Below are positions 6,878 to 33,005 of a DNA stretch of 36,334 nt, in pieces. Origin of the DNA: a virus. Every line of letters begins with the position of its first letter. The stretch's first letter is position 1. The notes under the pieces were generated by a model that had not been told where the DNA came from, did no database searches, and saw nothing but the letters and a program-made list of their open reading frames with translations. The DNA is taken from IMG/VR virus record IMGVR_UViG_3300001450_009945, positions 2,640-38,973 of that record; one strand, given 5' to 3'. The position numbers and the translations under genes are program-made.

Positions 6878-7259
6878 TTTGACTATCTCCTTTTTCGACT
6901 CTATAAGAGTCTTCTATTTTATCTTGCGTTGAGGTTTCAAAAATACAGCTATCTTCAAGAGCTTCTAATTGATGAGCTATACCTTGGTATATTGTTACAA
7001 CATCACCTGCGTTTAATTCTTGTACAACTTTATCTGCATTAGTAGGATCAATCCATGTGAATTTTAATTTGCCGTATCGTACAAACCACGTTTCATATTT
7101 ATCAACATGATAGTGCATTGAAAACTTTTTACCTTTTTCAAATACTAAAAGCTTAGCACAATAGTCTTGATTGTTTTCGATGTGTAATTCATATCCCCAA
7201 CCTTTTTTAATAAAAGATTCTTTACATTTTGTTGCATTCCATACTATCGGTTTTTCCAT
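6870..7259 (-). CDS. Cupin protein, mannose-6-phosphate isomerase type II-like
   Basis: This 129-residue single-domain cupin has motif 1 as FSMHYHVDKYETWFV (HxH...E metal ligands) and motif 2 as the AGDVVTIYQGIAHQLEAL region. It resembles the C-terminal cupin domain of GDP-mannose pyrophosphorylase/mannose-6-phosphate isomerase proteins (GWGYELHIEN...CAKLLVFEKGKKFSMHYH). The likely role is aldose/ketose isomerisation or sugar-nucleotide epimerisation in the island. GGAGATA precedes the start, and the gene overlaps the HldC-like gene by 16 bases. Confidence 0.75.
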   Translation of the reverse strand: MEKPIVWNATKCKESFIKKGWGYELHIENNQDYCAKLLVFEKGKKFSMHYHVDKYETWFVRYGKLKFTWIDPTNADKVVQELNAGDVVTIYQGIAHQLEALEDSCIFETSTQDKIEDSYRVEKGDSQNE

Positions 7260-7636
7260 TCTAATATCTCCGTTGTTGAGTATCCTTCTATTCTATCAAA
7301 GAATACTACTTCTTCTACATGTTGTTCACCTACCACAGTTTGGCCTTTCCAATCTGATCCTATGACTAATTTACTAGCTCCTACTATATTTACGAGATCT
7401 TCCAATCCTTGGGTAGAGTCAAATACAAATACTCCATCTATATATTTTATAGATTCTAAAACTTCTTTTCTATCTTGCATATTATTAAAAGGTCTATCAT
7501 CTCCCTTATCTTTTTTAACTTTTTCATCTGAATCAATACCTACGTATAATTTAGATCCTAAGCTTTTGGCATATTTGAATAATTCAATGTGTCCTTTATG
7601 TAAGATGTCAAAACATCCATTAGTCCAAATTATCAT
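7244..7636 (-). CDS. hldC: Heptose-1-phosphate adenylyltransferase-like cytidylyltransferase (HldC / HldE C-terminal domain)
   Basis: This protein has 130 residues from ATG 7636, which forms an ATGA overlap with the kinase gene before it. The nucleotidyltransferase signature appears as TNGCFDILHKGH (HxGH at 13-16), followed by YVGIDSDEKV, the DRPFNNMQDR segment typical of RfaE2/HldE C-domains, and a late YSTTEI in place of the STS motif. Family role: transfer of AMP from ATP to heptose-1-phosphate, giving ADP-heptose. The adjacent kinase and epimerase support the same pathway. A different sugar-1-phosphate or glycerol-phosphate substrate cannot be excluded. Confidence 0.8.
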   Translation of the reverse strand: MIIWTNGCFDILHKGHIELFKYAKSLGSKLYVGIDSDEKVKKDKGDDRPFNNMQDRKEVLESIKYIDGVFVFDSTQGLEDLVNIVGASKLVIGSDWKGQTVVGEQHVEEVVFFDRIEGYSTTEILEWKNR

Positions 7637-8388
7637 ACAGTTGCTACTCCTTGTTTTTGTACCACTATTGTAGTGCATTCCTGTGCAAATTGGATAGCTT
7701 TGTCTATATTATTTGTGTTAATATATTCATATACCAATCCAGCTAAGAATGTATCTCCTGCTCCTGAGACGTCCTTTACAGGAACATCTGTTGTTGCATA
7801 CATTCGGCCTTGATATTCACATCCATGCTTACCTTTCGTTACTATTAATTGTTTGTGTAGATTGGGATATTCTGACAGTTGCTTGGAATTCTTTTGATAT
7901 TCTAAATGATTAATTTTAATATAATCCATACCTTTACACCAACTACCTAATTCTTTTTTTGTATCTAAGAATGTGGGACACTTTGCTTTTTTACCTATAT
8001 GAGCTATATCATAAAGTGTAAGAAATCCTTTATCATAATCCGATACTACTATAGCGTCATACTCTAAATCAAAATCTGTATTTATACAATTTTGCCAGTC
8101 TTCATTAAAGTCAATTGGCATGCATTCATCATTTTCATCTACTCTAAGAACCATTTGGTTATATCGCTCGTCTACATATCTTATCTTTCTAATAGATTCT
8201 TTATTAGTAATTAAATCAACTGTGGCTCCTAGAGCTTTTAAATTAGCAACTACATTTCCTGCCATTCCTGGATTTGATTTTTTCTCTACTGGTACTAATA
8301 CTGGTACTGGAGCTTCTGGAGCTATCCTTTCTATATCTCCATAGATAAATACATCTTCACAACTATCCCCTATAACTAATATTTTCAT
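7633..8388 (-). CDS. hldA: PfkB-family heptose-7-phosphate kinase-like (HldA / HldE N-terminal domain)
   Basis: This 251-residue protein carries HldE kinase hallmarks: IAPEAPVPVLVP (22-33), GMAGNVVANLKALGA (41-55), VSDYDKG and the PfkB catalytic motif SGAGDTF with D212. It ends at QKQGVATV, equivalent to the end of the HldE kinase domain. It is 60 or so residues shorter than that domain in enterobacterial HldE, mainly through loss between about residues 60 and 75 and compact loops. Expected role: phosphorylation of heptose-7-phosphate at C1. It is coupled by ATGA to both neighbours, hldD upstream and hldC downstream. Confidence 0.8.
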   Translation of the reverse strand: MKILVIGDSCEDVFIYGDIERIAPEAPVPVLVPVEKKSNPGMAGNVVANLKALGATVDLITNKESIRKIRYVDERYNQMVLRVDENDECMPIDFNEDWQNCINTDFDLEYDAIVVSDYDKGFLTLYDIAHIGKKAKCPTFLDTKKELGSWCKGMDYIKINHLEYQKNSKQLSEYPNLHKQLIVTKGKHGCEYQGRMYATTDVPVKDVSGAGDTFLAGLVYEYINTNNIDKAIQFAQECTTIVVQKQGVATV

Positions 8389-9170
8389 ATGCTCAAATTC
8401 TTTCTATATTCTTTTGTTCCTTCTTCCACTGTCCAATTTGGCTCCCATCCTGGCATAAATTTTAATCTGTCTGCTTTAGTGTAGAATTGGTACCAACCAG
8501 GTATTTTATCTGGAGTGTGATAAGTATATGATATTTCCATTCCTTCTACTAAAGATTCAAAAGTTTCTGCTTTACCCGTACCTACGTCAAATACTCCGCG
8601 TTCTAAACTCATTGCATGTAAGTTTGCATGAACAATGTCTGCTATATATACAAAATCCCTCTTTGGATTTTTTGGAAACAATTTAAACTTTCCTGCTTTA
8701 TGTGCTTGATATGCTACTGATGCCATTTTACCCTTTTCATGTTCACCTGGACCGTATACATTAAAATATCTTAACGCTACAAACTTCTTACATGCTTGCA
8801 ATCCATACTCCTCTGCTAATAATTTCGACCAACCGTATATGTTATTTGGAAGGCCATCATTTCCGTAACAAGCAGCGGAGCTAGAATATACAACTTTTTT
8901 CTTATATTTCCTAGCTAAATCAAATAATTTTTTGCTTGTTGTATAATTCCAATACAACATATAGTTTGGATCTTGTTCAGTTGTATCTGATATTGCTCCT
9001 ATATGGAATATACCATCACACTGTTTAACCATGCTTTCCAAAGCTAGCTCATCTTCCCATGTCTGTTTGTCTTGATGTATTTGCCATGCATAATCACCTC
9101 TCGATTCGAGTGTTTCTAATACAGCTTTTCCTACAAATCCTTCTGCTCCAGTTACTATGAATTTTGCCAT
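8385..9170 (-). CDS. hldD: ADP-L-glycero-D-manno-heptose 6-epimerase-like SDR (HldD)
   Basis: This protein has 261 residues from ATG 9170; an upstream in-frame TTG at 9182 is less likely, since GGGAAAT fits the ATG. The Rossmann motif is TGAEGFVG (7-14). HldD-specific blocks follow in order: GAISDTTEQD (58-67), SSSAACYG, YGWSK (Y112/K116), LRYFNVYGPGEHEKGKMASV and RDFVYIADIV, then VGTGKAETF and GWYQFYTKAD. This string is diagnostic for the heptose 6-epimerase family. The role would be the last step of ADP-L,D-heptose formation. It is slightly shorter than cellular HldD (about 310). Confidence 0.88.
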   Translation of the reverse strand: MAKFIVTGAEGFVGKAVLETLESRGDYAWQIHQDKQTWEDELALESMVKQCDGIFHIGAISDTTEQDPNYMLYWNYTTSKKLFDLARKYKKKVVYSSSAACYGNDGLPNNIYGWSKLLAEEYGLQACKKFVALRYFNVYGPGEHEKGKMASVAYQAHKAGKFKLFPKNPKRDFVYIADIVHANLHAMSLERGVFDVGTGKAETFESLVEGMEISYTYHTPDKIPGWYQFYTKADRLKFMPGWEPNWTVEEGTKEYRKNLSI

Positions 9171-9547
9171 GATATTTCCCAATCTTTAAAATCTGCTGCT
9201 AAGCAATCTATTTTATAATCTTTTCTTCCACCAACTTTTTCTTGGATCATATTTTTTGCAGTATTTCTAATACCATTTAATCCGTGTGTTAGCTCGAGAT
9301 TATTTCCATCTTTGAGACCTTTTCTATAGTTTGATTCATTGTGCCATATATGTAAATTCATTTGTGAAAGCACTACGACAGCTCTAATCAATTCTGCATC
9401 TATTCCTTCTAACTTAATATCGTGCATAATATCTTGAATTTCCTGAGCATATTCTTCTTTATGATCTGGAATAAATACTTCTTTTAATTGTGCTATTGAT
9501 AGCCTATCTATTAATTCTGATAGTGTTGGTAAATATTTTCTACTCAT
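9155..9547 (-). CDS. Conserved-looking hypothetical protein in sugar island
   Basis: This protein has 130 residues from ATG 9547, which has GGAGAAA upstream and an ATGA overlap with the GMD-like gene. It is probably all-helical: LPTLSELIDRLSIAQLKEV, then a charged helix, then LRAVVVLSQMNLHIWHNES. I do not recognise a named domain. Its position between hldD and gmd, with overlaps on both sides, suggests a role tied to sugar synthesis or to an acceptor protein, but nothing catalytic is visible. Confidence 0.6.
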   Translation of the reverse strand: MSRKYLPTLSELIDRLSIAQLKEVFIPDHKEEYAQEIQDIMHDIKLEGIDAELIRAVVVLSQMNLHIWHNESNYRKGLKDGNNLELTHGLNGIRNTAKNMIQEKVGGRKDYKIDCLAADFKDWEISWQNS

Positions 9548-10503
9548 ACTCGCTTTCTCCAATATTCTAGTAAATCGTTCCATATATCATCCATCGTTTT
9601 TTCTGGCTTCCAATCATAATGACTTTTAAATTTAGATGTATCAGGTATCTGTAGTGTTATATCAGTTGGTCTCATTCTTTCAGGATCTTGAATTTTCTTG
9701 AATGGTTTATCTGATTTTGATATTAAAGCATCTAATGCTTCTCCTACTAAACACGATTCATCACCGCCTATATTATATACCTCACCTGGTCTTGGAAATT
9801 CTGAACATAGCCAATACGCCTTGATCGCGTCATCTATATGATTATAGGTTCTAACAGAATTTAAGTTTCCATGTCGTACTTCATATATTCCATTTTTCTC
9901 TCCTTTTGCGATTTGACGTGCAAACGATGATACTGCAAATTCTTTTCCTCTTCTAGCTCCTTCATGACTAAACATTCGAGTAGTTATAATTTTCATTCCA
10001 AACGCTTTGTGATAATATTGAGACATTAAATCATGTCCTACTTTCGATATTGAATATGGATTAGCTGGTCGAATTGGATTATTTTCAGTTATTGGAATTT
10101 CATGTGGTTCTGGATTACCATATACCTCACTTGTAGACACACTTATTATAACCGGATCCATTTCATTTGATTTTATTGATTCTAATAAATGAGTTGTTCC
10201 CAATACATTTGTATGCAATGTTACAATTGGATTTTTGAAGCTAGATTCTGGAAAACTTTGAGCTGCAAAGTGAAATACTTTATCCGGTTTGGATAGCTTA
10301 ATCGCTCTATCAATACTAGCATAATCCATTAAATCGCCTCCATAAAGTACAACTCTCGGATTGTCGATTAGATGCTCTATATTTGTAGTATCTTCCATCC
10401 ATCTTTTAAACCCATAAATTTGATCATCTGTGTGTTCCAGAATATAGTCTGCCATATGGCTACCTACAAATCCTGTAATGCCTGTGATAAATATTTTACT
10501 CAT
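9544..10503 (-). CDS. gmd: GDP-mannose 4,6-dehydratase-like SDR
   Basis: This protein has 319 residues from ATG 10503, preceded by GGAAGAG; the longer open frame upstream lies within the next gene. It has GITGFVG (8-14), STSEVYG (123-129) and Y150/K154 in PYSISK. TTRMFSHEGARRGKEF and the late ERMRPTDI...DTSKF segment are typical of GDP-mannose 4,6-dehydratases, where T/S and E of the S(T)SE motif take part in dehydration. Expected product: GDP-4-keto-6-deoxymannose, feeding the Fcl-like and cupin neighbours. A CDP- or UDP-sugar substrate is possible. Confidence 0.82.
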   Translation of the reverse strand: MSKIFITGITGFVGSHMADYILEHTDDQIYGFKRWMEDTTNIEHLIDNPRVVLYGGDLMDYASIDRAIKLSKPDKVFHFAAQSFPESSFKNPIVTLHTNVLGTTHLLESIKSNEMDPVIISVSTSEVYGNPEPHEIPITENNPIRPANPYSISKVGHDLMSQYYHKAFGMKIITTRMFSHEGARRGKEFAVSSFARQIAKGEKNGIYEVRHGNLNSVRTYNHIDDAIKAYWLCSEFPRPGEVYNIGGDESCLVGEALDALISKSDKPFKKIQDPERMRPTDITLQIPDTSKFKSHYDWKPEKTMDDIWNDLLEYWRKRV

Positions 10504-10978
10504 TTTTATCTCTTCCCCATAGAATTGGATTATTATGTGGCCATTTGAAATTCCACGATGGATCATTCCAATGTACAACAAATTGATTTTCTATATCATT
10601 ATAAGAACCCTCAAACGCTTGCTTGTAATGGAACGTGCATGTATCACTTAATACAAAATGACCATTTGCACAACCTGGAGGAACCAATACTTGTTTTCTA
10701 TTAGCATCTGATAATACAAACCATTCTGATTCACCGTAGGTTTCTGACTCCTTACGACAATCAGCTACAACTAGATAGAATTCACCCTGCACACAATTGA
10801 TCAGCTTCCATGTTTTATCATCACCGTGTAATCCTCGCAGTACATCTTTTTTAGAATGTGAAAACTTATCCAATCTCCAATTCAAATCTGGATAATCATC
10901 ACTGGTCCACGTTGTGTATATGTCTCCACGAAAGTCTTCATGATGAGTTGGATTAAAAGTTTTTAGATCTTGAATCAT
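10496..10978 (-). CDS. RmlC-like cupin (dTDP-4-dehydrorhamnose 3,5-epimerase family)
   Basis: This protein has 160 residues from ATG 10978 (ATGA overlap with the upstream SDR, AGAGG ribosome site). RmlC family blocks are present: EDFRGDIY, SKKDVLRGLH with H51, KLINCVQGEFYLVVADCRKES, VPPGCANGHFVLSD, FHYKQ and WNDP...WP...PILWGRD. The usual AHG of the active-site strand reads ANG here (104-106), seen in some subfamilies that epimerise or isomerise other keto-sugars. It likely acts on the 4-keto sugar made by the adjacent GMD-like enzyme. Confidence 0.8.
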   Translation of the reverse strand: MIQDLKTFNPTHHEDFRGDIYTTWTSDDYPDLNWRLDKFSHSKKDVLRGLHGDDKTWKLINCVQGEFYLVVADCRKESETYGESEWFVLSDANRKQVLVPPGCANGHFVLSDTCTFHYKQAFEGSYNDIENQFVVHWNDPSWNFKWPHNNPILWGRDKNE

Positions 10979-11883
10979 GCAACTACCTCTTCTGATACAT
11001 TCTCCAGATACCACTCAATGGTTTTACGGACACCTTCTTCAAAACTAGTTTGTGGTGTGAATCCATATTTTTTTGCTCGACTTGTATCTAATACTCTTCT
11101 CATATCACCTTCTGGTTTTTCTGGCGAATATTCAATAGTTCTATCAAAATAATTAGCTACTATTTCAGCCACAGCTTTGATTGATATACCATGTCCGCTA
11201 GCTAAGTTTACTGGTTCAGTAACTTTATTTTCTACCATATGAATCATTCCCTGAGCTACATCTTCTGAATAGATTAAATCTCTAACGGGTGCGCCAGTTC
11301 CCCAAACGTTTAGTATTTCATTCAAATGTCCTTTCTTAATTAAAGATGGAACAACCATTGAATGCTCACCAAAATTATCATGCGGTCCATATACATTTGC
11401 AGGTCTTACTATTGATACTTTATTCCAATCGTTTTCAATTGCATATGCTTGTGCTTGCAATTCACCCATTCTCTTTGCCCAAGCTGGGAATGTATCATTT
11501 TTTGTAGGAAATGTTTTCCACACATCATCTTCGGTTAATACTTCAGCTTGCTCATATACTCCAACAGAACTTGTATACAAATACCATTCTACTCCTGCAT
11601 CTTTAGCAGCTTCCATCATATTAGTGTTAAACTGTAACATTGGTACAAAGTATCTTGCTGGTTTTTCTACAGCTGTTTGTGGACTACCTTTGATACCTGC
11701 TAGATGCATTACGATATCCATTCCTTTACATATTTCTTGACATACACATCTTTCTCTTAGATCTGTTGGTAGGTCTGTTGGATATACACGTGCACCTTTT
11801 TCTTGTAACATTTTTACTAATGATTTTCCAATCATTCCGTTAGCACCCGTTACTAATATTTTTTTATCTTTTAAATTTATCAT
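10975..11883 (-). CDS. GDP-L-fucose synthase-like SDR lacking the YxxxK tyrosine
   Basis: This 302-residue SDR has the NADP-binding motif GANGMIGKS (13-21). Downstream blocks resemble GDP-fucose synthase: MHLAGIKGSP, TNMMEAA, VRPANVYGPHDNF, SLIKKGH and WGTGAPVRDLIYSEDVA. The catalytic lysine K137 lies in PAWAKRMGE, and the tyrosine expected four residues before it is P133. Either the catalytic residue is elsewhere or the chemistry differs. It overlaps the RmlC-like gene by ATGA, and the GMD-like gene follows, so a GDP-6-deoxyhexose pathway is the best guess. Confidence 0.75.
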   Translation of the reverse strand: MINLKDKKILVTGANGMIGKSLVKMLQEKGARVYPTDLPTDLRERCVCQEICKGMDIVMHLAGIKGSPQTAVEKPARYFVPMLQFNTNMMEAAKDAGVEWYLYTSSVGVYEQAEVLTEDDVWKTFPTKNDTFPAWAKRMGELQAQAYAIENDWNKVSIVRPANVYGPHDNFGEHSMVVPSLIKKGHLNEILNVWGTGAPVRDLIYSEDVAQGMIHMVENKVTEPVNLASGHGISIKAVAEIVANYFDRTIEYSPEKPEGDMRRVLDTSRAKKYGFTPQTSFEEGVRKTIEWYLENVSEEVVA

Positions 11884-12689: not shown

Positions 12690-13793
12690 TTATTTTTCCC
12701 AAACTAGTGCTGGGATTTCTTTGTTCCATCCAAAAGCTATTACCCAAGCCCAAAATCTTAACCTACCTTCGATCAAATCAAATTGAGTATCGTTTACACG
12801 CTTGAGCCTGATAGGCTTTAGGAATATTCCTTGTTCTATTTCTTCTGATAATTCTATTGGGGATGGCGTCATTCCCATTGCATTTTCTTTTGCTTCTTCT
12901 ATTGTTTGATATACTTTACGATTGTAGTCATTAGAAACTCTAATCTGCTTTGTATCTATATTTCTTGTCGGTGTTACCAACTGTACTGACATTGATTCAT
13001 AATCATGGTCTGTTAATTCTATATCAGCTGATTTTGCATTTTCCAATGCACGTGATGGTTTTGACGTATTTGGGATTACTATTACGTTTGGATCTTGTAT
13101 CAACCACCTTAAAACTATTTGTCCTGGAGTACATTTATATTTCTCTGAAAGAGCATTTAGATATTCTGATTGGTATGATCCATTTGCCAACTTTCCTTGT
13201 GCTAATGGACTATATGCGATGAGCTTGATATCATTATTTTCACAGAAGGGTAATATGTCCTTCTCTACTGACCGTTCAAAAAAATTATATTCTGCTTGTA
13301 TGCAAGCTAAGTGATGACCTTCAGAAGTTAATGCAGTAACCGCATCTTGTGCTTCTGATAGTAGAAAATTACTGACACCTACATGTCTAACCTTCCCTTC
13401 CTTTACTAAAGTATTCATTGCTCTCATCGTTTCACTAATTGGGAAATTTGGATTTGGCCAATGTACTTGGAATAGATCGATTCGGTCTGTTTGCAATCTT
13501 ATAAGACTATCTTCAGCTGATTTTATAACACCTTCGTATGTAGTATCGTTTGGAGATACTTTACTTGCTAAAAATACTTTTTCTCTACCTATTTTTTTCA
13601 ATGCAGATCCCAATAAAGTTTCAGATAATCCATTTCCATATACTGGTGCAGTATCTATAAAATTTACACCATTATCTACAAAGCATGATAGTGTTAGGTC
13701 TAGATTCTTTCCATCTTCCTTATCTGGTAGGTGGAATCCAGTACCAAAACCTATTGCAGAGACGCTATCCGATCCTAAGTTACGATAAATCAT
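12690..13793 (-). CDS. Aldo/keto reductase fused to a C-terminal ParB/sulfiredoxin-like domain
   Basis: This protein has 367 residues. Residues 1-275 are an aldo/keto reductase with the full catalytic tetrad D47, Y52, K78 and H111, the GVSNF motif and the IPNTSKP NADPH-binding segment. Residues 281-367 look like a ParB N-terminal/sulfiredoxin-fold domain: IRVS...ELSEEIEQGIFLKPIRL...FDLIEGRLRFWAWVIAFG...IPALVW, with EGRLRFWA matching the family's GxRR-like phosphate loop. The fusion is unusual. The reductase probably reduces an aldehyde or ketone made by the adjacent thiamine enzymes. The TAATG junction couples it to the transketolase gene. Confidence 0.82.
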   Translation of the reverse strand: MIYRNLGSDSVSAIGFGTGFHLPDKEDGKNLDLTLSCFVDNGVNFIDTAPVYGNGLSETLLGSALKKIGREKVFLASKVSPNDTTYEGVIKSAEDSLIRLQTDRIDLFQVHWPNPNFPISETMRAMNTLVKEGKVRHVGVSNFLLSEAQDAVTALTSEGHHLACIQAEYNFFERSVEKDILPFCENNDIKLIAYSPLAQGKLANGSYQSEYLNALSEKYKCTPGQIVLRWLIQDPNVIVIPNTSKPSRALENAKSADIELTDHDYESMSVQLVTPTRNIDTKQIRVSNDYNRKVYQTIEEAKENAMGMTPSPIELSEEIEQGIFLKPIRLKRVNDTQFDLIEGRLRFWAWVIAFGWNKEIPALVWEK

Positions 13794-14686
13794 TATATAT
13801 CTCTAATCTTAGTAATTATTGAATCAACATCTATTCCATATTTTTGATGTAGCCATTTTCTATCTCCATACTCAAAATATTGTTTATCTTCCAATGCTAT
13901 CCTTTTCAGTTTAATAGAGAGGTTATTGTCTGTGATGAACTCGCTGATTGCACTACCAATTCCACCAGTTATTGAATTTTCTTCAATGGTGATAATTTGT
14001 CGAGCGTGATATATTAATTGTTCTAAATTATTTGGTAATGGACTTATTCTAATTAAATCTATCAATCCATACTTTAATTCCTTTGCAACTTCTAATGCTA
14101 CATGAGTCATGTATCCAGTACTTATAATAACTGTATCATCAAATTCGCGTATTTCATTTGCAGCTTCACATCCATCCGTATACAATTCTGGGAATGTTCC
14201 TTTATCAATTCTTACATAAGCTGGTGATGAATTGTTATAAACTTTTTGTGCACAATCTTTAGCTGACTCAGCATCGGATGGGTTAAAAATTTTCATCTCA
14301 GGCATTACTCTCATAACACCTATATCATGTATTGCATGATGAGTTGGTCCATCTTTGGAAAATGACAATCCTGCTCCACATCCTATTATAGTAACATCTA
14401 AATTCATACTACATATATTTGCTTTTATATGCTCATAACACCTCATTGTAATGAACGGAATTATAGAATACACGAATACTTTTTTTCCAGCTAACGCTAA
14501 CCCAGTTGCTATTAATACCATGTTTTGTTCTTGTACACCCACATTTATGAATTGGTCTGGAAAATCTTTTTTATATTTTCTAATACTGAACGCATCTGCA
14601 TCCGCCGTTATGAATACTACGTTTTTATCTTTTGCTGCAATATCATATATTTCGTCGAAGAAAGCATCTCTAATATCTATACCCAT
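13793..14686 (-). CDS. Transketolase-like C-terminal half (Pyr and C domains)
   Basis: This 297-residue protein equals the pyrimidine-binding and C-terminal part of transketolase/DXS-type enzymes: FINVGVQEQNMVLIATGLAL holds the conserved Glu that activates thiamine diphosphate, followed by the aromatic YSIIPFITMRCYEHI and a late TIEENSITGGIGSAI block of the transketolase C domain. Split two-gene transketolases of this type occur in bacterial and archaeal sugar loci. It overlaps the N-terminal-half gene by ten bases with AGGAG, so equimolar assembly is likely. Confidence 0.85.
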   Translation of the reverse strand: MGIDIRDAFFDEIYDIAAKDKNVVFITADADAFSIRKYKKDFPDQFINVGVQEQNMVLIATGLALAGKKVFVYSIIPFITMRCYEHIKANICSMNLDVTIIGCGAGLSFSKDGPTHHAIHDIGVMRVMPEMKIFNPSDAESAKDCAQKVYNNSSPAYVRIDKGTFPELYTDGCEAANEIREFDDTVIISTGYMTHVALEVAKELKYGLIDLIRISPLPNNLEQLIYHARQIITIEENSITGGIGSAISEFITDNNLSIKLKRIALEDKQYFEYGDRKWLHQKYGIDVDSIITKIRDI

Positions 14687-15498
14687 TTTAGAATCTCCTC
14701 TTTTAATTCTACTTCAGCTAAATCAAATTCTTCATCTGTTGGAACAGAGTGGTGCCATTTTATTCCAGATTCCATAAATGAAACTCCTTTTCCTTTTACG
14801 GTGTCTGCTATAATAACTGTTGGTTTATTTATTTTTAGATATCGGTGTTCTAAGCCATGACATATTGAATCGTGATTATGGCCGTCTATTGTTTCAACAT
14901 TCCAACCACAAGCTGTAAATTTTTCTTCAAGATTATCATTTTCGATAAAATCTGTAACGGATAGTCTATTTCTATCAACAATCACAGTCAAGTTAGTTAC
15001 ATTTTTCTGAGCTGCAAACATGACGGACTCCCAAATGGATCCTTCTTCACATTCTCCATCTCCCACTAAAGAATACATGTGTTGATCTGGTTTTGCCATA
15101 GCTAATCCAGTTGCAATTCCAATCGCATGTCCGAGTGATCCAGTGTTTGTTTCTACTCCTGGTATATTAAAGTCTAATTGTCCACCATAAATACTACCAT
15201 CAATTCCATACATTGCTATTTCAGATTTAGATATGATTCCAAGATCAGCTAAGATTGCATATATTCCCAAACACGCGTGTCCTTTACCTACTATTAATCT
15301 ATCCCTATCTTCCCAATCTGGATCGTTAACTCTGTAGCAAAATGCACTTGGTCCGTAGTACAAAGCTACTAATATATCCATACAAGAATATATTCCTCCA
15401 AAATGTCCGAGTCGAGCTTGTTTTATCATTTCCAAAACTTTTAATCTCATCTCAGCTGATTTTTTCTGCAAACTTCCTGTTGGATATAAATTATCCAT
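14677..15498 (-). CDS. Transketolase-like N-terminal half (TPP-binding)
   Basis: This 273-residue protein has GHFGG (31-35), GKGHACLG, the TGSLGHAIGIATGLA block and the thiamine-diphosphate motif GDGECEEG...VIVDRN (146-177), the GDG-N pattern. Together with the next gene it makes a complete two-subunit transketolase, which moves two-carbon units between sugar phosphates and can supply sedoheptulose-7-phosphate, the precursor of ADP-heptose, or act on a dedicated keto-sugar. GGAGG precedes the start, with a TAATG junction to the upstream gene. Confidence 0.87.
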   Translation of the reverse strand: MDNLYPTGSLQKKSAEMRLKVLEMIKQARLGHFGGIYSCMDILVALYYGPSAFCYRVNDPDWEDRDRLIVGKGHACLGIYAILADLGIISKSEIAMYGIDGSIYGGQLDFNIPGVETNTGSLGHAIGIATGLAMAKPDQHMYSLVGDGECEEGSIWESVMFAAQKNVTNLTVIVDRNRLSVTDFIENDNLEEKFTACGWNVETIDGHNHDSICHGLEHRYLKINKPTVIIADTVKGKGVSFMESGIKWHHSVPTDEEFDLAEVELKEEILKWV

Positions 15499-17153
15499 TA
15501 TACATTTCCTCCAAAAGGTTCTATAATTTTTTGATTACAGTCACAAACAACTTCTACCAACATAGGTGTATTAGTTGAAAATATTTTTTTAAGATCCGAT
15601 TCAATATTATTATAATCTTCAATAATATAAAATGGCAACTCAAACGCTGCAGCTACTTTTTTAAAATTCAATACCGTATCATCATCTGTATATCTAGCAC
15701 CAGTCATATCATCTTGCGATTTTCGGATAGATGCGTATCCACCGTTATTTATTACAAATGTTTTTATGTTTAGATTGTTATACGATATAGTTCGCAACTC
15801 TTGTATATTCAATTCAATTGAACCATCTCCTACAATAGTAATTACCTGAGAGTCTGGTTGAGTTGCGCTAGCTCCTATGGATAAAGGTACTGCTAATCCC
15901 ATACTATAAAAAGCTCCAGAAGTTAAATCTCGCTGTCCTTGTTTTAGTTTAAGTGTTTGAGATACTGCATAATTAGAACTTCCCGCATCACTAACAAATA
16001 CTGCATTTTCAGCTGCATACTTACTTACAGTTTGTAAAAAACGGTATGAGTTTATTGGATTTCCTATCTGCTCTGTAGTTACAATTGGATTGGATGTTTG
16101 ATATTCTTTACATGTATCTAACCATCCACTATATCGATTCCACTCAGTGGTTTTTTCAATCTCTGAATTCAGCTCAGTCATAAATAATTTCAAATCAACT
16201 TGTAATGGAATATCAACTTTAAGACCTGGTTTTTTCATTTCAGTTTTATCAATATTTACCATTATTAGTTTTTTCACAGATTCAAAATAATTATACTCCG
16301 GACCTGCCTGTGCATGGGTTAGACTAGTTCCTAGAGCTAATACTAAATCACATTCCTTCATAATTTTAGATGATGATAAATTTCCTCTTATACCACCCAT
16401 TCCAAAATAACACTCATCTTCATCTGTTAGAATATCATTAGCTAATCTTGCAGATATTGCTGGAATTCTCAATTCGTTCAGTAAGAATCTTAACTCGTCA
16501 ATACTATCAGATGTTCTGACTCCTTGTCCAAATACAACCAAAGGTTTTTTACACTTACGCAGTTCAGTCAATACTTTTCCTATATTAATTTTTTTGCTTT
16601 TATGTTGATGTGGTTTAAATCCTTTTAAATTAGAGATATTGATTTCTTGTGATTGTACATCGAATGGAATATCTAACCAAACTGGTCCTGGTCTTCCTGT
16701 CGTTGCTTCGTGAATAGCTTTTTCTAAATGAAATCGAATATCATTTGGATCATCAACACGAACTGCATATTTTGTTATATTTTTTACATTGTCAATAATA
16801 TTGAATCCTTGAATACCAAATGTTCTAGCTTTATCTGATAACTGTTTAGTTCCTACTTGTCCTGATATTACGAGTACTGGTGCTGAGTCCACCCACGCTT
16901 CCGCTACACCACTAATTGCATTCGTTCCACCAGGTCCGGTTGTTGCTATAACAACTCCTACATCATTCAAAAGTTTAGAATATGCAGAAGCCATTCCAAC
17001 AGCTGCAGCTTCGTGTCTTGCACAAATATATCTCATACCTTTTTGATGAGCAAATGCATCATCTAAGTATATAGAACCAGTACCCGAAAGCATGAATACA
17101 TTCTTTACTCCATGATTATTTAAGAATTCAGCTATAAATTCTGATGCATTCAC
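15498..17153 (-). CDS. Acetolactate-synthase-like TPP enzyme, GTG start
   Basis: This protein has 551 residues, the normal length for the family. The N-terminal Pyr domain has ARHEAAAVGMASAY with the TPP-activating E48 and the TTGPGGTNAISGVAEAW block. A central FAD/NAD-like domain follows, then GDGSIELNIQELRT...INNGG (442-471), the TPP/metal motif. The start is GTG (17151-17153) preceded by GGAGACC, overlapping the panB stop. Cellular relatives include acetohydroxyacid synthase and YerE, which adds a two-carbon acetyl branch to a keto-sugar. Here the partners suggest a biosynthetic carboligase rather than valine synthesis. Confidence 0.87.
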   Translation of the reverse strand: MNASEFIAEFLNNHGVKNVFMLSGTGSIYLDDAFAHQKGMRYICARHEAAAVGMASAYSKLLNDVGVVIATTGPGGTNAISGVAEAWVDSAPVLVISGQVGTKQLSDKARTFGIQGFNIIDNVKNITKYAVRVDDPNDIRFHLEKAIHEATTGRPGPVWLDIPFDVQSQEINISNLKGFKPHQHKSKKINIGKVLTELRKCKKPLVVFGQGVRTSDSIDELRFLLNELRIPAISARLANDILTDEDECYFGMGGIRGNLSSSKIMKECDLVLALGTSLTHAQAGPEYNYFESVKKLIMVNIDKTEMKKPGLKVDIPLQVDLKLFMTELNSEIEKTTEWNRYSGWLDTCKEYQTSNPIVTTEQIGNPINSYRFLQTVSKYAAENAVFVSDAGSSNYAVSQTLKLKQGQRDLTSGAFYSMGLAVPLSIGASATQPDSQVITIVGDGSIELNIQELRTISYNNLNIKTFVINNGGYASIRKSQDDMTGARYTDDDTVLNFKKVAAAFELPFYIIEDYNNIESDLKKIFSTNTPMLVEVVCDCNQKIIEPFGGNV

Positions 17154-18082
17154 TATTGGTCTCCTTTTGAAGTTCTTGGCGTCACACTATGTTTTGGCTC
17201 TGCTTTATTTTCTACTCTATCAGCTTCATATTTCCACTTCGAATCACCTAATAACTTTTCTAATTCATCTTCCTTGATTTCATAGAAATTTTCTGATGCT
17301 GGGAAAACTCCACCTCTTACCTCATCTCTATATTGTTCTAACGATGATTTAATTAACTGTCCTGCTTCACAATATCTCTTTACAAATTTAGATTTAAAGT
17401 CCCAGAATAATCCTATTAAGTCATGCATGATTACCAATTGACCATCTACTTCATCACCTGCTCCAATACCGTAAACTGGTATATCCAATTCTTTAGCTAT
17501 CATTGCAGCTGGTTCTTTTGGCATTGCTTCTAACAATAATGCTGAGCATCCTGCTTCTTGTAAAGCTATAGCTTGATTAAGTACAAGTTCAGCTTGGTCA
17601 GCTGTTTTACCTTGCACTCTATATCCACCCATTTTTGCTCTCGTATGAGGAGTCAATCCTAAATGACTCATAACCATAATCCCAGAATCGCATATAGCTT
17701 TAATTCTTTCTACCATTGCTCCTTCCACTTTAACCATATCCATTCCCGCTTTTATAAATCTACCAGCGTTTTCTACTGCGCTTTCATTTGATATTTGATA
17801 TGACATGTAAGGCATATCACCTATTAAAAATGCATCACTAGCACCTCTTGATACAGACTCTGCTGCTGATATCATTTGATCCATAGTTACTGGGATTGTT
17901 GTTTTATGACCTAATGTAGTCATCCCCAACGAATCACCAACTAGAATTACATCTACTCCTGCTCCATCTGCAATATATGCTTGTGGATAATCGTAAGCTG
18001 TTACAGCTACAGTTTTAATTCCTTCTCTTTTGTGCTTTCTCAACTTAATAATAGTTGTTTTTGTTTTGCTATCTGCTGCCAT
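17153..18082 (-). CDS. panB: Ketopantoate hydroxymethyltransferase homologue (PanB)
   Basis: This protein has 309 residues. PanB catalytic and metal residues are all visible by comparison with the E. coli enzyme: D50 (VGDS), D89 (IGDM), K118/E120 (KVEG), H140 (SHLGLTP) and E185 (LLEA), plus GIGAG and the MHDLIGL helix. Family role: transfer of a hydroxymethyl group from methylenetetrahydrofolate to a 2-oxo acid. A charged tail after about residue 265 (ending KHSVTPRTSKGDQ) is an extension. In this context the acceptor may be an oxo acid made by the adjacent TPP enzymes, rather than 2-oxoisovalerate. GGAGAAA precedes the start. Confidence 0.9.
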   Translation of the reverse strand: MAADSKTKTTIIKLRKHKREGIKTVAVTAYDYPQAYIADGAGVDVILVGDSLGMTTLGHKTTIPVTMDQMISAAESVSRGASDAFLIGDMPYMSYQISNESAVENAGRFIKAGMDMVKVEGAMVERIKAICDSGIMVMSHLGLTPHTRAKMGGYRVQGKTADQAELVLNQAIALQEAGCSALLLEAMPKEPAAMIAKELDIPVYGIGAGDEVDGQLVIMHDLIGLFWDFKSKFVKRYCEAGQLIKSSLEQYRDEVRGGVFPASENFYEIKEDELEKLLGDSKWKYEADRVENKAEPKHSVTPRTSKGDQ

Positions 18083-18094
18083 GTTATTTCTCCT

Positions 18095-18625
18095 TTATTT
18101 ATCGTTATAATGATCACCATACTCTATTAGTAATGTCGATCCTTTCCTTTCATATGCCTTTTCAAATTCAGACACAATTTCTTTTGGTTCGTTTAATAGT
18201 ACTATTTTTATTTCACCCAATATAGATTGCAATGCTTCTGTATAATCTATAGTGTGTTGGACGCCTCCGTTCAATGGAGTCGTAGACCCAATTGAAGTTC
18301 TTATGATTACTTTTGGTTTCCAATTATTCTCAGTCATTATTTGAAATTTATCTAAATGATTTACTAATTGATCCATTGCTCTCATTAGGAAATCAAACCG
18401 TGGATAGCAACTAATTGGCGTTAAACCTTCCAATGCCATACCAGTTGCTATACCCATTTGTACTTCTTCAAATACTGGCATTTCCAGTCTTTTATCTTCT
18501 GATACTGTACTTAATGTATTAAATATAGCATTGCCACTATACGATACTGATTGACCTAAAAAAATCGTATCATCTTTTTCAGCTAGCCATTCCATTGCTT
18601 TAATTATTTCGTCTTTATATTTCAT
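18095..18625 (-). CDS. E1 dehydrogenase beta-like protein, Pyr domain only
   Basis: This protein has 176 residues from ATG 18625, with AGGAGAG upstream; an upstream start lies within the alpha gene. It matches the N-terminal half of E1-beta/transketolase Pyr domains: FLGQSVSYSGN, then MPVFEEVQMGIATGMALEG with the Glu pair at 53-54 that would contact thiamine, and PRFDFLMRAMDQLVNHLDK. The usual C-terminal domain of about 140 residues is absent. The protein ends normally, so this is a genuine short form. It probably pairs with the alpha-like protein encoded just upstream. Confidence 0.78.
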   Translation of the reverse strand: MKYKDEIIKAMEWLAEKDDTIFLGQSVSYSGNAIFNTLSTVSEDKRLEMPVFEEVQMGIATGMALEGLTPISCYPRFDFLMRAMDQLVNHLDKFQIMTENNWKPKVIIRTSIGSTTPLNGGVQHTIDYTEALQSILGEIKIVLLNEPKEIVSEFEKAYERKGSTLLIEYGDHYNDK

Positions 18626-18635
18626 AACATCTCTC

Positions 18636-19259
18636 CTAGAATAAAACCCAATTGCCAGTTCCGTGGTGTGGAAATACTCTATCATATTTATAATAAATCA
18701 CATCCTCTGGAACATCTCTTTTTACACCACCCCAAGTTTCGTCAGTTGGTGTGTTAGTACTCATATTATTATCTTCTACTACAAACTGTAATGGTAAATC
18801 AAAATTCTTTGCATATTTATATGCTTCATAAAACAATCCACTTTCAAATGTCATATCACCAATGAAACACCAAGTCTTTCTATCACTTCCCATTTCTTTC
18901 TGAGCTTTAGCTGTACCTAATGCTATTGGAATAGTTCCTCCTACAATAGATGAAGTATACAGTTTTGGTTCTTTAGAATAAACACTCATACTTTTTCCAC
19001 GAACAATTAGGTCCTTCAAGATTTCTTGATCGACACCGTGTAATAATGCGTGATAATGATTTCTCCAACTAGAGAATACCCAATCATCTGGGTGAACATA
19101 TTGAAATATATCTATCAGATTATCTTCATTCCCTCCTGATAAATGAACAGGGCCTGGTATTTTTCCAGCTTCATATATTAATTTAATATCTTCCTCAAAA
19201 TCTATGAGATCTTTTGCTGTTAAGTTAACATCTTTATGTTTTATCAATCCTGGCTTCAT
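18636..19259 (-). CDS. E1 dehydrogenase alpha-like TPP-binding protein, compact
   Basis: This protein has 207 residues, short for E1 alpha (about 320-360). It retains SSWRNHYHALLHG (the YRxH...G-like block), SSIVGGTIPIALGTA and the TPP motif GDMTFESG (134-141) to VEDNN (161-165). The N-terminal 30 residues and the C-terminal region are reduced. It likely forms the thiamine-binding subunit with the adjacent beta-like protein. The natural 2-oxo acid is unknown, and no E2/E3 partner is visible in this window, so a carboligase or decarboxylase role is as likely as a dehydrogenase. ATGA couples it to the SDR gene. Confidence 0.78.
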   Translation of the reverse strand: MKPGLIKHKDVNLTAKDLIDFEEDIKLIYEAGKIPGPVHLSGGNEDNLIDIFQYVHPDDWVFSSWRNHYHALLHGVDQEILKDLIVRGKSMSVYSKEPKLYTSSIVGGTIPIALGTAKAQKEMGSDRKTWCFIGDMTFESGLFYEAYKYAKNFDLPLQFVVEDNNMSTNTPTDETWGGVKRDVPEDVIYYKYDRVFPHHGTGNWVLF

Positions 19260-20254
19260 GTTAAGTATCCCTCTTTATTTTTATTATACCATTCTATAGT
19301 TTTTTTGATTCCTTCATCAATATTAACTTCAGGCTTCCACCCTAACTCATCAAAAGCTTTTTGTGAATTAAGTGCTAATTTTGTATTAATGCTTGGCTTT
19401 GTCAAATCGTGAGTTATCGTCAGATTTTTTCCTGAGTGTTTTACTATTTTATTTACAATATCTTTTACCGAAATACTTGTACCATTTCCAACGTTATATA
19501 ACTTGTATATAGATTTTTGCAAATTTATAGCCTTATCAATAAAATTTACAACATCTGAAACATATAGTAGGTCTCGCTCAGTTGATCCATCTCCCCAAAC
19601 TACCATTTCATCTCCTTCAGTTGCTTCCATTGCTTTTGTAATAGTTGCACCAAACATATGAGATTTTTCTAAATCGTATTTATCGTAAGGGCCGTAAGTG
19701 TTTGAATGACGTATGACAGTATGTTTAGTTCTTCCTAATTTAGAGTAAAATTCACACATTTTTTCTACATAAACTTTTGTCCACCCAACTCCAAAATATG
19801 CATCAAATATACCCTCATCTAATGAAAAATCCATCTCAGTTACTGGCGATCTTTCTGGATTGTACATTACTCCACAACTTAGAAATAAAAAGTGGCCAAC
19901 ATTATAATCATAACATGCTCGTAACAATAATGAATTCATTACTGCATTGTCAGTAACATGTAGGTATGGCTTTTCTAATATATCCTTTGCTCCAGATGTA
20001 TTTGCAGCTGCCATAATTACAACATCGTATTGTGGTGTACGCTTAAATACATGATCTATTCCTGATTGTGTTGTTATATCACATGAGAGATGTTGTTGAC
20101 CAGTTACACCTTTATATCTCCACGGTCTAGTATTACATACAGTCCATACATCATATTGCTCTGGCTTAGATTTATAATAATTGTAGATGTTCATTCCCAT
20201 GAATCCAGTTGCACCTACTATCAATACGCTAGTTTTATCTTGTTTTTTACTCAT
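19256..20254 (-). CDS. Nucleotide-sugar epimerase/reductase-like SDR with atypical active site
   Basis: This 332-residue SDR has GATGFMG (14-20) and the Fcl/WcaG-like segments MAAANTSGA, LFLSCGVMY, VIRHSNTYGPYDKYD, VVWGDGSTERDLLYVSDVV and GWKPEVNIDEGIKKT. The catalytic lysine is K160 in FGVGWTK, and the tyrosine expected at K-4 is V156. Y153 lies seven residues before the lysine. This matches the atypical GW-x-K arrangement of the SDR at 10975-11883 and suggests a common subfamily. It is the first gene after the 18-base element at 20280-20297. Confidence 0.78.
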   Translation of the reverse strand: MSKKQDKTSVLIVGATGFMGMNIYNYYKSKPEQYDVWTVCNTRPWRYKGVTGQQHLSCDITTQSGIDHVFKRTPQYDVVIMAAANTSGAKDILEKPYLHVTDNAVMNSLLLRACYDYNVGHFLFLSCGVMYNPERSPVTEMDFSLDEGIFDAYFGVGWTKVYVEKMCEFYSKLGRTKHTVIRHSNTYGPYDKYDLEKSHMFGATITKAMEATEGDEMVVWGDGSTERDLLYVSDVVNFIDKAINLQKSIYKLYNVGNGTSISVKDIVNKIVKHSGKNLTITHDLTKPSINTKLALNSQKAFDELGWKPEVNIDEGIKKTIEWYNKNKEGYLT

Positions 20255-27360: not shown

Positions 27361-27759
27361 CTAACTAATTATTACAACTTTTTTCTTATATTTTTTAGCT
27401 TCACTTATCGTATGATTAGTTTCTTTACCATCCTCTCCATTTGGAGTAAATATTATCATTACATCACAGTATTTTGCTAGCATAGTGTTTCTCGTAAAGA
27501 AGTTTCCTGGGTTGTATGTCTTATTATAATAATTTTCATGTAATGCTGAATATAAATTTTTTGGAGTGTGAGATGGATTGAACTCTAAGTATTCACATCC
27601 TAACTCTAACGCATATTTCTTTGCATATTTATCCGCTCCTTGTTTGCATCCACTAGATGCTATTAATAAAGATTCACACTCATTCTTCAATTTATATATA
27701 CATTCTTTTATCTTACGTTTATTTTCGTAATTGCGACTACCTACAATACCAACCTTCAT
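27361..27759 (-). CDS. SLOG-superfamily (YspA/DUF2493-like) protein
   Basis: This 132-residue protein has MKVGIVGSRNYENK as first strand and loop, ASSGCKQGADKYAKKYA as the G-x-D-loop of SLOG folds, FFTRNTMLAKYCDVMIIF and TISEAKKYKKKVVII. This ordered set matches the YspA-type SLOG family, Rossmann-like domains that bind nucleotides or nucleotide-derived signals. The true ligand is unknown. It overlaps the Smr-like gene by ATGA, in a group with a nuclease and an RHH protein. Confidence 0.75.
   Translation of the reverse strand: MKVGIVGSRNYENKRKIKECIYKLKNECESLLIASSGCKQGADKYAKKYALELGCEYLEFNPSHTPKNLYSALHENYYNKTYNPGNFFTRNTMLAKYCDVMIIFTPNGEDGKETNHTISEAKKYKKKVVIIS

Positions 27760-31066: not shown

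Positions 31067-33005
<1,939 letters not shown>

Follow-up and report, generated by a model that had tools for sequence, protein, structure and literature searches.

The 36,334-nucleotide window analysed here, positions 2,640 to 38,973 of the 40.6 kb virus record IMGVR_UViG_3300001450_009945 (IMG/VR), carries on its minus strand a compact set of seven open reading frames (ORFs) which a preliminary description had proposed as a candidate pathway for a branched sugar or acyl chain. The positions of all seven were confirmed, and Pfam backs their family assignments (Table 1). Neighbouring genes of the set overlap or lie no more than 12 bases apart. In the order of transcription, a short-chain dehydrogenase/reductase (SDR) is followed by E1-alpha-like and E1-beta-like subunits, PanB, a thiamine diphosphate (ThDP) carboligase, two transketolase halves, and an aldo/keto reductase (AKR). 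Methyltransferase-, Fcl-, RmlC- and 4,6-dehydratase-like genes and an HldE-like pair lie beyond the AKR, glycosyltransferase-like genes occur on both flanks of the set, and PolB, a clamp-loader-like AAA ATPase and a chaperonin are encoded further out. An 81.7 kb IMG/VR contig has almost the same genes as the window, at 98–100% identity. Based on sequence and gene neighbourhood, we propose, with a probability of about 0.72, that PanB and the carboligase act one directly after the other in the synthesis of a C-branched sugar.

PanB and the carboligase

The PanB protein is a full member of its family by the curated NCBIfam cut-off (Table 1), and a clade-B representative likewise scores above it. 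The residues D45, S46, D84, K112, E114, H136 and E181 (E. coli numbering) are present in all 74 phage-type rows of the alignment (58 of them distinct), which bears out the preliminary statement that the catalytic residues are complete; the careful alignment brought no loss of active-site residues to light. Phage-type PanBs also lack two residues and are altered close to the active site, at positions 113–118, 135 and 183; we claim no function for these changes. The PanB tree, in which the rows L221_2nd and L222_2nd are wrong reading frames and were disregarded, places the viral proteins in two distant clades, both paired with carboligases, as is the cellular PanB of a Lachnospiraceae locus (L122).

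Comparison of the carboligase with NCBIfam gave acetolactate synthase as the top family, at 325 bits and thus below the cut-off of 538. Searches against the PDB matched JanthE (8rph) with an E value of 4.5e-84 (286 bits), as compared to 5.8e-59 (203 bits) for the best acetolactate synthase. JanthE is described as a YerE-like enzyme forming tertiary alcohols from 2-oxo acids and ketones, its physiological substrates being unknown (PMC12188165). An AlphaFold2 model of the carboligase (mean pLDDT 86.4) had JanthE ranked first by both Foldseek and VIA-align; the VIA-align Z scores of 45.3 for JanthE and 43.0 for the best acetolactate synthase (difference 2.3) indicate the same fold and a modest preference only. 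By sequence and, modestly, by predicted fold, the protein thus appears nearer to the YerE-like JanthE than to all acetolactate synthases listed from the PDB. It had been introduced as acetolactate-synthase-like; its nature as a three-domain ThDP carboligase stands, while the closest relative has to be revised. The catalytic glutamate and the GDG and NN motifs are kept in 75 of 75 carboligase rows (70 viral, five cellular), an alignment which counts the window's contig three times. The comparison with characterised enzymes comprised JanthE and structures of acetolactate synthases.

Table 1. Genes of the proposed set and of its sugar context in the window
Feature	Position	Strand	Family evidence
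YerE-like ThDP carboligase, 551 aa	15498..17153	-	PF02776 2.7e-33, PF00205 9.9e-26, PF02775 5.1e-33
PanB (ketopantoate hydroxymethyltransferase family), 309 aa	17153..18082	-	PF02548 2.5e-97; TIGR00222 284 bits, cut-off 207.55
Transketolase N half (ThDP-binding)	14677..15498	-	PF00456 6.7e-32
Transketolase C half (pyrimidine-binding and C domain)	13793..14686	-	PF02779 8e-30, PF02780 (Transketolase_C) 2.1e-18
Aldo/keto reductase (AKR)	12690..13793	-	PF00248 3e-66
E1-beta-like ThDP subunit, without Transketolase_C match	18095..18685	-	PF02779 8.4e-9
E1-alpha-like ThDP subunit, short, GDM for GDG	18636..19259	-	PF00676 5.9e-17
SDR epimerase/reductase adjoining the E1 pair	19256..20254	-	PF01370 4.2e-37; similar SDRs recur in E1 loci
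Nucleotide-sugar 4,6-dehydratase family SDR, proposed keto-sugar maker	9544..10581	-	PF16363 2e-70; TIGR01181 166 bits, below cut-off 365.1
dTDP-4-keto sugar 3,5-epimerase family (RmlC)	10496..11014	-	PF00908 1e-35
GDP-fucose-synthase-like SDR (Fcl-like)	10975..11883	-	PF01370 3e-39; NF047922 143 bits, cut-off 500
Cytidylyltransferase-like and PfkB kinase pair (HldE-like, heptose activation?)	7244..8388	-	PF01467 2.6e-18, PF00294 4.9e-17; TIGR02198 138 bits, cut-off 345

Neighbours of PanB and of the carboligase

A scan of viral contigs with the window's PanB as query yielded 68 loci with PanBs 71–100% identical to it, and in each of them the next gene to PanB, in either order, codes for a carboligase. 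Pairing in 68 of 68 loci is more than chance would give, even though the other PanB-neighbour carboligases are just 27–54% identical to that of the window (its own contig apart). A close-relative scan with the window's carboligase recovered its own contig alone; alignments were therefore used for scanning. In a second PanB scan, performed with an alignment of diverse PanBs and sharing many contigs with the first, the best 80 of 114 relatives had the carboligase adjacent in 76 cases and within five genes in four. Dereplication of the pooled 144 PanBs at 95% left 59, each with a same-strand carboligase no more than three genes away (adjacent in 55, two genes off in three, three genes off in one); the median gap of the 55 adjacent pairs is 2 bp. 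Carboligases beside the PanBs of the first scan (71–100% identical to that of the window) fall into deep, separate lineages. The carboligase tree was built by a quick method with two references and has its long branches flagged, so that just the label changes were used; the PanB label needs six changes on it, or five by starred branches, and its switching across deep carboligase lineages indicates that the pairing outlives gene exchange.

No named phage with the pair was found in the phage collection, where none of the records with a carboligase match (56 and 57) or with a PanB match (13) attains 60% identity; those listed reach at most 32% (carboligase) and 45% (PanB), and many resemble bacterial contigs by eye. 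Record MW495066.1 (L071), named 'Microcystis phage MaAM05', contains panB, panC, guaD and suf genes and looks like bacterial rather than phage DNA.

From a scan for cellular PanBs, 80 genome loci were kept of 362. Proteins from L077 down are 45–53% identical and, L122 excepted, occur without a carboligase in the stretches examined. A carboligase adjoins PanB in metagenome-assembled genomes (MAGs) of Chloroflexi (L075) and Omnitrophota (L076), both with RfbH-like and dehydratase-like genes nearby, and in L122, which has a glucose-1-phosphate cytidylyltransferase gene scoring above cut-off in the vicinity. Phage-like pairs were also observed in a Pelagibacter MAG (L072) and a Prochlorococcus single-amplified genome (SAG; L074), stretches which may be either viral or cellular. 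A second PanB is encoded in five of the six cellular genomes whose PanB is of phage type or linked to a carboligase; the sixth is a Marinimicrobia SAG (L073). Genes for B12-binding radical SAM proteins (HpnJ-like, KedN5-like) lie near several PanB-carboligase pairs, in phages as well as in the Chloroflexi MAG (L002:13570-15105, L066:7509-9554, L075:6014-7528).

Three viral carboligase scans, of which the best 80 of 526, 515 and 515 relatives were taken, gave 213 loci with 104 non-redundant carboligases. Within five genes of these, PanB was found 42 times (40 adjacent), a NeuB-family protein 20 times, an HpcH/HpaI-family protein nine times and an HMGL-like protein six times; one locus has a 3-deoxy-D-arabino-heptulosonate 7-phosphate (DAHP) synthase with an RraA-like gene. 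We take the NeuB-, HpaI- and HMGL-like families and DAHP synthase to be makers of hydroxylated 2-oxo acids. PanB or another putative 2-oxo-acid maker is thus within five genes in 78 of 104 carboligase loci, as against none of 39 control loci (non-redundant, E1-alpha-centred phage sugar loci without carboligase), which corresponds to a Fisher p of 5e-18, the rows being related. The labels are backed by Pfam for 20/20 NeuB, 10/10 HpaI (from nine loci) and 6/6 HMGL proteins and for the single DAHP synthase and RraA-like protein; among the donor representatives compared with NCBIfam, DAHP synthase scored above cut-off and that of L436 was without a match. Donor labels need 20 changes on the carboligase tree. 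These neighbourhoods show that the PanB slot is exchangeable, PanB giving way to other putative makers of hydroxylated 2-oxo acids.

A proposed branched-sugar pathway and its alternatives

RfbH-like genes are present in 97, and 4,6-dehydratase-like genes in 78, of the 104 carboligase loci, so that most relatives of the pair appear to share the genetic setting of yersiniose. The PanB loci contain 59 full-length RfbH-like ORFs, 38 of PAHH type and 21 others (two subfamilies), and all 59 have histidine at what we take to be the position of the pyridoxal phosphate-binding lysine of aminotransferases, presumably the mark of a sugar 3-dehydrase.

YfaU is, we assume, a member of PF03328. In vitro, ketopantoate hydroxymethyltransferase (KPHMT) and YfaU are described to convert varied 2-oxo acids and formaldehyde to 3-substituted 4-hydroxy-2-oxo acids (PMC7611260), and KPHMT variants have been grouped with PF03328 aldolases as makers of 4-hydroxy-2-oxo acids (PMC7610986). 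The YerE-like enzyme ErwE, as presented in a 2025 review (PMC12247030), does not accept pyruvate and favours 4-hydroxy-2-oxo acids, among them the butanoate, pentanoate and hexanoate. The donor preference of ErwE together with the products of KPHMT and YfaU suggests, as the simplest model, that PanB forms a hydroxylated 2-oxo acid which the carboligase transfers to a keto-sugar nucleotide. With methylene-tetrahydrofolate as one-carbon source, PanB would hydroxymethylate a small 2-oxo acid, giving a 4-hydroxy-2-oxo acid. The carboligase is proposed to decarboxylate this donor and to attach the resulting acyl anion at the ketone carbon of a keto sugar, itself linked to a nucleotide and provided by the dehydratases of the cluster; the product would be a tertiary alcohol bearing a hydroxylated branch. 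Reduction of the branch ketone may fall to the AKR or an SDR, and the branched sugar would be built into a glycan by glycosyltransferases. Elsewhere among phages, other families making hydroxylated 2-oxo acids would take the slot of PanB. Substrates, order of steps, the roles of transketolase and AKR, and the destination of the sugar are what we infer from this context. The preliminary description had thought of two-carbon units; C-branching, with a YerE-type carboligase and PanB alongside, is indeed probable, whereas a longer, hydroxylated branch is favoured over the two-carbon unit. No account of PanB as a sugar-branch enzyme was found in the literature searched; Steitz 2022 (on ErwE) or Krug 2024 (a survey of YerE-like enzymes) may contain an earlier description.

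The arrangement resembles the CDP-yersiniose and erwiniose systems (YerE, ErwE) in that a ThDP carboligase, nearest to YerE-like JanthE, is encoded in a nucleotide-sugar cluster, in most relatives with 4,6-dehydratase-like and RfbH-like genes. Unlike these systems it belongs to phages, has next to the carboligase a PanB of its own or another putative maker of 2-oxo acids and, in the window, includes transketolase halves and no RfbH that could be found. The phage PanB in turn shares family, catalytic residues and curated score with the PanB of pantothenate synthesis, but differs in its carboligase neighbour, its own clades, the two-residue deletion, and the lack of a PanC match in 20 contigs.

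A number of observations weigh against the consecutive action of PanB and carboligase. In engineered KPHMT, the substrate has been altered via the pocket residues I202, I212 and V214 (PMC7611260, PMC7610986). These positions read I, L and I in 74 of 74 phage-type rows, which are also the commonest letters in 66 ordinary PanBs, and the sequence therefore gives no indication of a new PanB substrate; the enzyme may take ketoisovalerate itself. A substrate-determining pocket change had been expected but was not found at these three positions. By plain identity, just 59% of the 75 carboligases are nearer to JanthE than to one acetolactate synthase (5ahk). No RfbH-like gene was found among the scanned proteins of the window or in its 81.7 kb relative (possibly a fragment), so that the acceptor there may not be of the yersiniose type. 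None of the viral records searched is listed as complete, and all carriers of the pair are uncultured. The shares given above are no census, since sequences without PanB served as seeds for two of the three carboligase scans and each scan kept the best 80 relatives, and the donor queries were drawn from carboligase loci, which biases toward finding donor makers there. Finally, in L073 a PanB 79% identical to that of the window (9983–10927) is encoded inside a glycosyltransferase-like cluster, and no carboligase was found in the 20.9 kb stretch, nor genome-wide with one viral carboligase as query; this genome search missed even ordinary acetolactate synthases, which points to a possibly incomplete genome. 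L073 is the one clear exception to the pairing, and its PanB may serve another chemistry.

Also on this side of the balance are the 26 of 104 carboligase loci without a recognised 2-oxo-acid maker, comprising 20 of a DJ-1/cupin/HAD type and six with nothing. In the DJ-1 variant, the names 'cupin' (227 aa) and 'HAD' (129 aa) were given by eye, as Pfam had no match for either gene; the former has a weak GMP_PMI match. Pfam likewise assigned no family to two further carboligase neighbours, a 252-aa gene of L281 and an ill-chosen 66-aa stretch of L300. At four loci (two contigs), including L292:9449-11806 and L398:9371-11761, carboligase and cupin-like gene form a single fused ORF, which gives a clue to the DJ-1/cupin/HAD variant.

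The transketolase halves together cover the transketolase domains in Pfam. Three ThDP superfamilies are listed as known or proposed to use ketones, namely YerE-like decarboxylases, alpha-keto-acid dehydrogenases 2 and split transketolases (PMC12247030), and the window has a candidate for each. Among the 68 viral PanB loci, transketolase adjoins the pair in the window's contig, L027 and L041, and lies ten genes away in L006; it is also beside the pair in the Prochlorococcus locus L074. One of the 104 non-redundant carboligase loci has it, in scans without the window's own carboligase clade, and a scan with the N half recovered the contigs of the window and of L027 only. It is quite conceivable, at somewhat less than even odds, that these halves, and perhaps the E1 pair, just feed precursors such as sedoheptulose 7-phosphate to the HldE-like heptose genes. 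The HldE-like kinase and nucleotidyltransferase genes of the window are consistent with such a role, as are the apparent heptose genes, identified by eye, of L074. The conserved order PanB-carboligase-transketolase N half in the window, L027 (where the stretch ends inside the N half) and L074 argues against a mere feeding role, as does the proposal, as yet unproven, that split transketolases branch keto sugars in miharamycin (PMC12247030). The split transketolase of miharamycin and amipurimycin is likewise encoded by two genes in a sugar cluster; compared by description, the phage halves have other partner genes, and the function of the streptomycete proteins is itself unproven (PMC12247030). 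The AKR, for which we propose reduction of the branch ketone, was not found in L074 alongside PanB, carboligase and transketolase.

PanB and the carboligase might also be separate sugar enzymes, the carboligase adding a two-carbon branch derived from pyruvate and PanB making a hydroxylated acyl group for another transferase. YerE itself is described to prefer pyruvate (PMC12247030), and L073 shows PanB in a glycosyltransferase cluster without carboligase. A shared metabolite better accounts for the direct adjacency of the two genes in deeply separated carboligase lineages and for the replacement of PanB by other makers of 2-oxo acids beside the carboligase, and we regard independent action as unlikely.

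Slightly less likely still is a boost of vitamin and amino-acid synthesis, in which the carboligase would be an acetolactate synthase, PanB would feed pantothenate and CoA synthesis, and host enzymes would bridge the pathway. It draws on the full family membership, complete catalytic residues and ordinary pocket of PanB, and on a 2021 survey of an oxygen-minimum zone, where pantoate transferase was the most abundant of the vitamin-metabolism auxiliary metabolic genes and boosting of pantothenate and CoA was inferred (PMC8940887). Searches for PanC gave 0 of 20 PanB contigs (66–194 kb, some near-identical, possibly incomplete), with the control detected in nine of 14 genomes; IlvC was likewise found in 0 of the 20 contigs, with the control detected in 14 of 14. 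The host could supply both enzymes. Because of these negative searches, supply of pantothenate and acetolactate was demoted from the main interpretation. The affinity of the carboligase to JanthE, the sugar genes surrounding the pair, and the NeuB- or HMGL-like genes in the slot of PanB, which would make no sense for CoA, also speak against it. That the seven genes are functionally unlinked chance neighbours in a cassette array is very improbable: it would accord with the E1 module lacking the pair in most loci and with the single long same-strand gene array, but is contradicted for the pair by 59 of 59 non-redundant viral PanBs and the cellular L075, L076 and L122.

If PanB and the carboligase cooperate in a probable C-branched sugar pathway of phages with its own donor maker, the viral 'pantoate transferase' gains another, testable reading than vitamin B5 and CoA boosting, as branch maker for an unusual surface sugar. 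The pairing also suggests a possible source of the hydroxylated donors of ErwE-type carboligases, and supplies naturally matched donor makers and carboligases for the production of tertiary alcohols; should the donor be readable from the neighbour gene, sequence would allow prediction of the branch chemistry in phage or host glycans as yet unknown. At even odds, in our estimate, stands a wider joint interpretation, according to which marine phages run a modular branched-sugar chemistry, one YerE-like carboligase being fed by exchangeable donor makers (PanB, NeuB-like, HpaI-like, HMGL-like, DAHP synthase) and new sugars arising by single-gene swaps, and according to which viral 'pantothenate' genes reported as vitamin boosters mostly belong to such glycan chemistry.

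The E1 pair and further genes of the window

The E1-like proteins are short (207 and 196 aa). In the E1-alpha-like subunit, G134-D135-M136 and N164 are kept in more than 93% of 63 rows, GDM being a family trait; in the E1-beta-like subunit, which matches Transket_pyr only, E73 and H144 are kept in more than 93% of 61 rows and may, as matched by eye, correspond to the catalytic Glu and His of the human enzyme. Carboligases are absent from the stretches examined of 39 of the 42 non-redundant E1-alpha loci, the remaining three having both carboligase and PanB, and E1-alpha occurs in six of the 68 PanB loci. RmlC is located at position -1, directly upstream of the E1-alpha gene, in 29 of the 42. 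The E1 pair is a separate module, and the notion that all five systems act in one pathway was dropped, as the pair stands mostly alone and the transketolase is rare; of the co-occurrence envisaged for the set, the pairing of PanB with the carboligase recurs, while the E1 genes are largely scattered independently. One virus contig (L196) contains both modules, a PanB-carboligase-RfbH set and RmlC-E1-alpha-E1-beta.

Compared by setting and description, the phage E1 genes resemble the alpha-keto acid dehydrogenase 2 pairs of the aldgamycin, kibdelomycin and trioxacarcin type (PMC12247030) in being separate E1-alpha- and E1-beta-like genes near a 3,5-epimerase and an SDR gene, but their products are shorter, without a Transketolase_C match, and have the GDM motif. 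Relatives in cyanophages S-SM2 and P-TIM68, annotated as 'transketolase central region-containing protein', are 43–44% identical and encoded by one longer gene, beside alcohol dehydrogenase and kinase genes.

The PolB of the window has Microcystis phage Mel-JY01 as nearest named phage (44%). At 31067–33005, a gene for a GroEL-like chaperonin (PF00118), whose top-listed phage match is Flavobacterium phage immuto (52%), is followed by a 102-aa ORF resembling GroES by eye. The ORF at 9155–9583 codes for a 142-aa protein with a sub-cut-off Pfam match (GapR) only and no match in NCBIfam and PDB searches, which is 62–82% conserved among phage sugar clusters. A small SLOG-type (YspA-like) protein is encoded at 27361–27759, between the replication genes and the sugar cluster.

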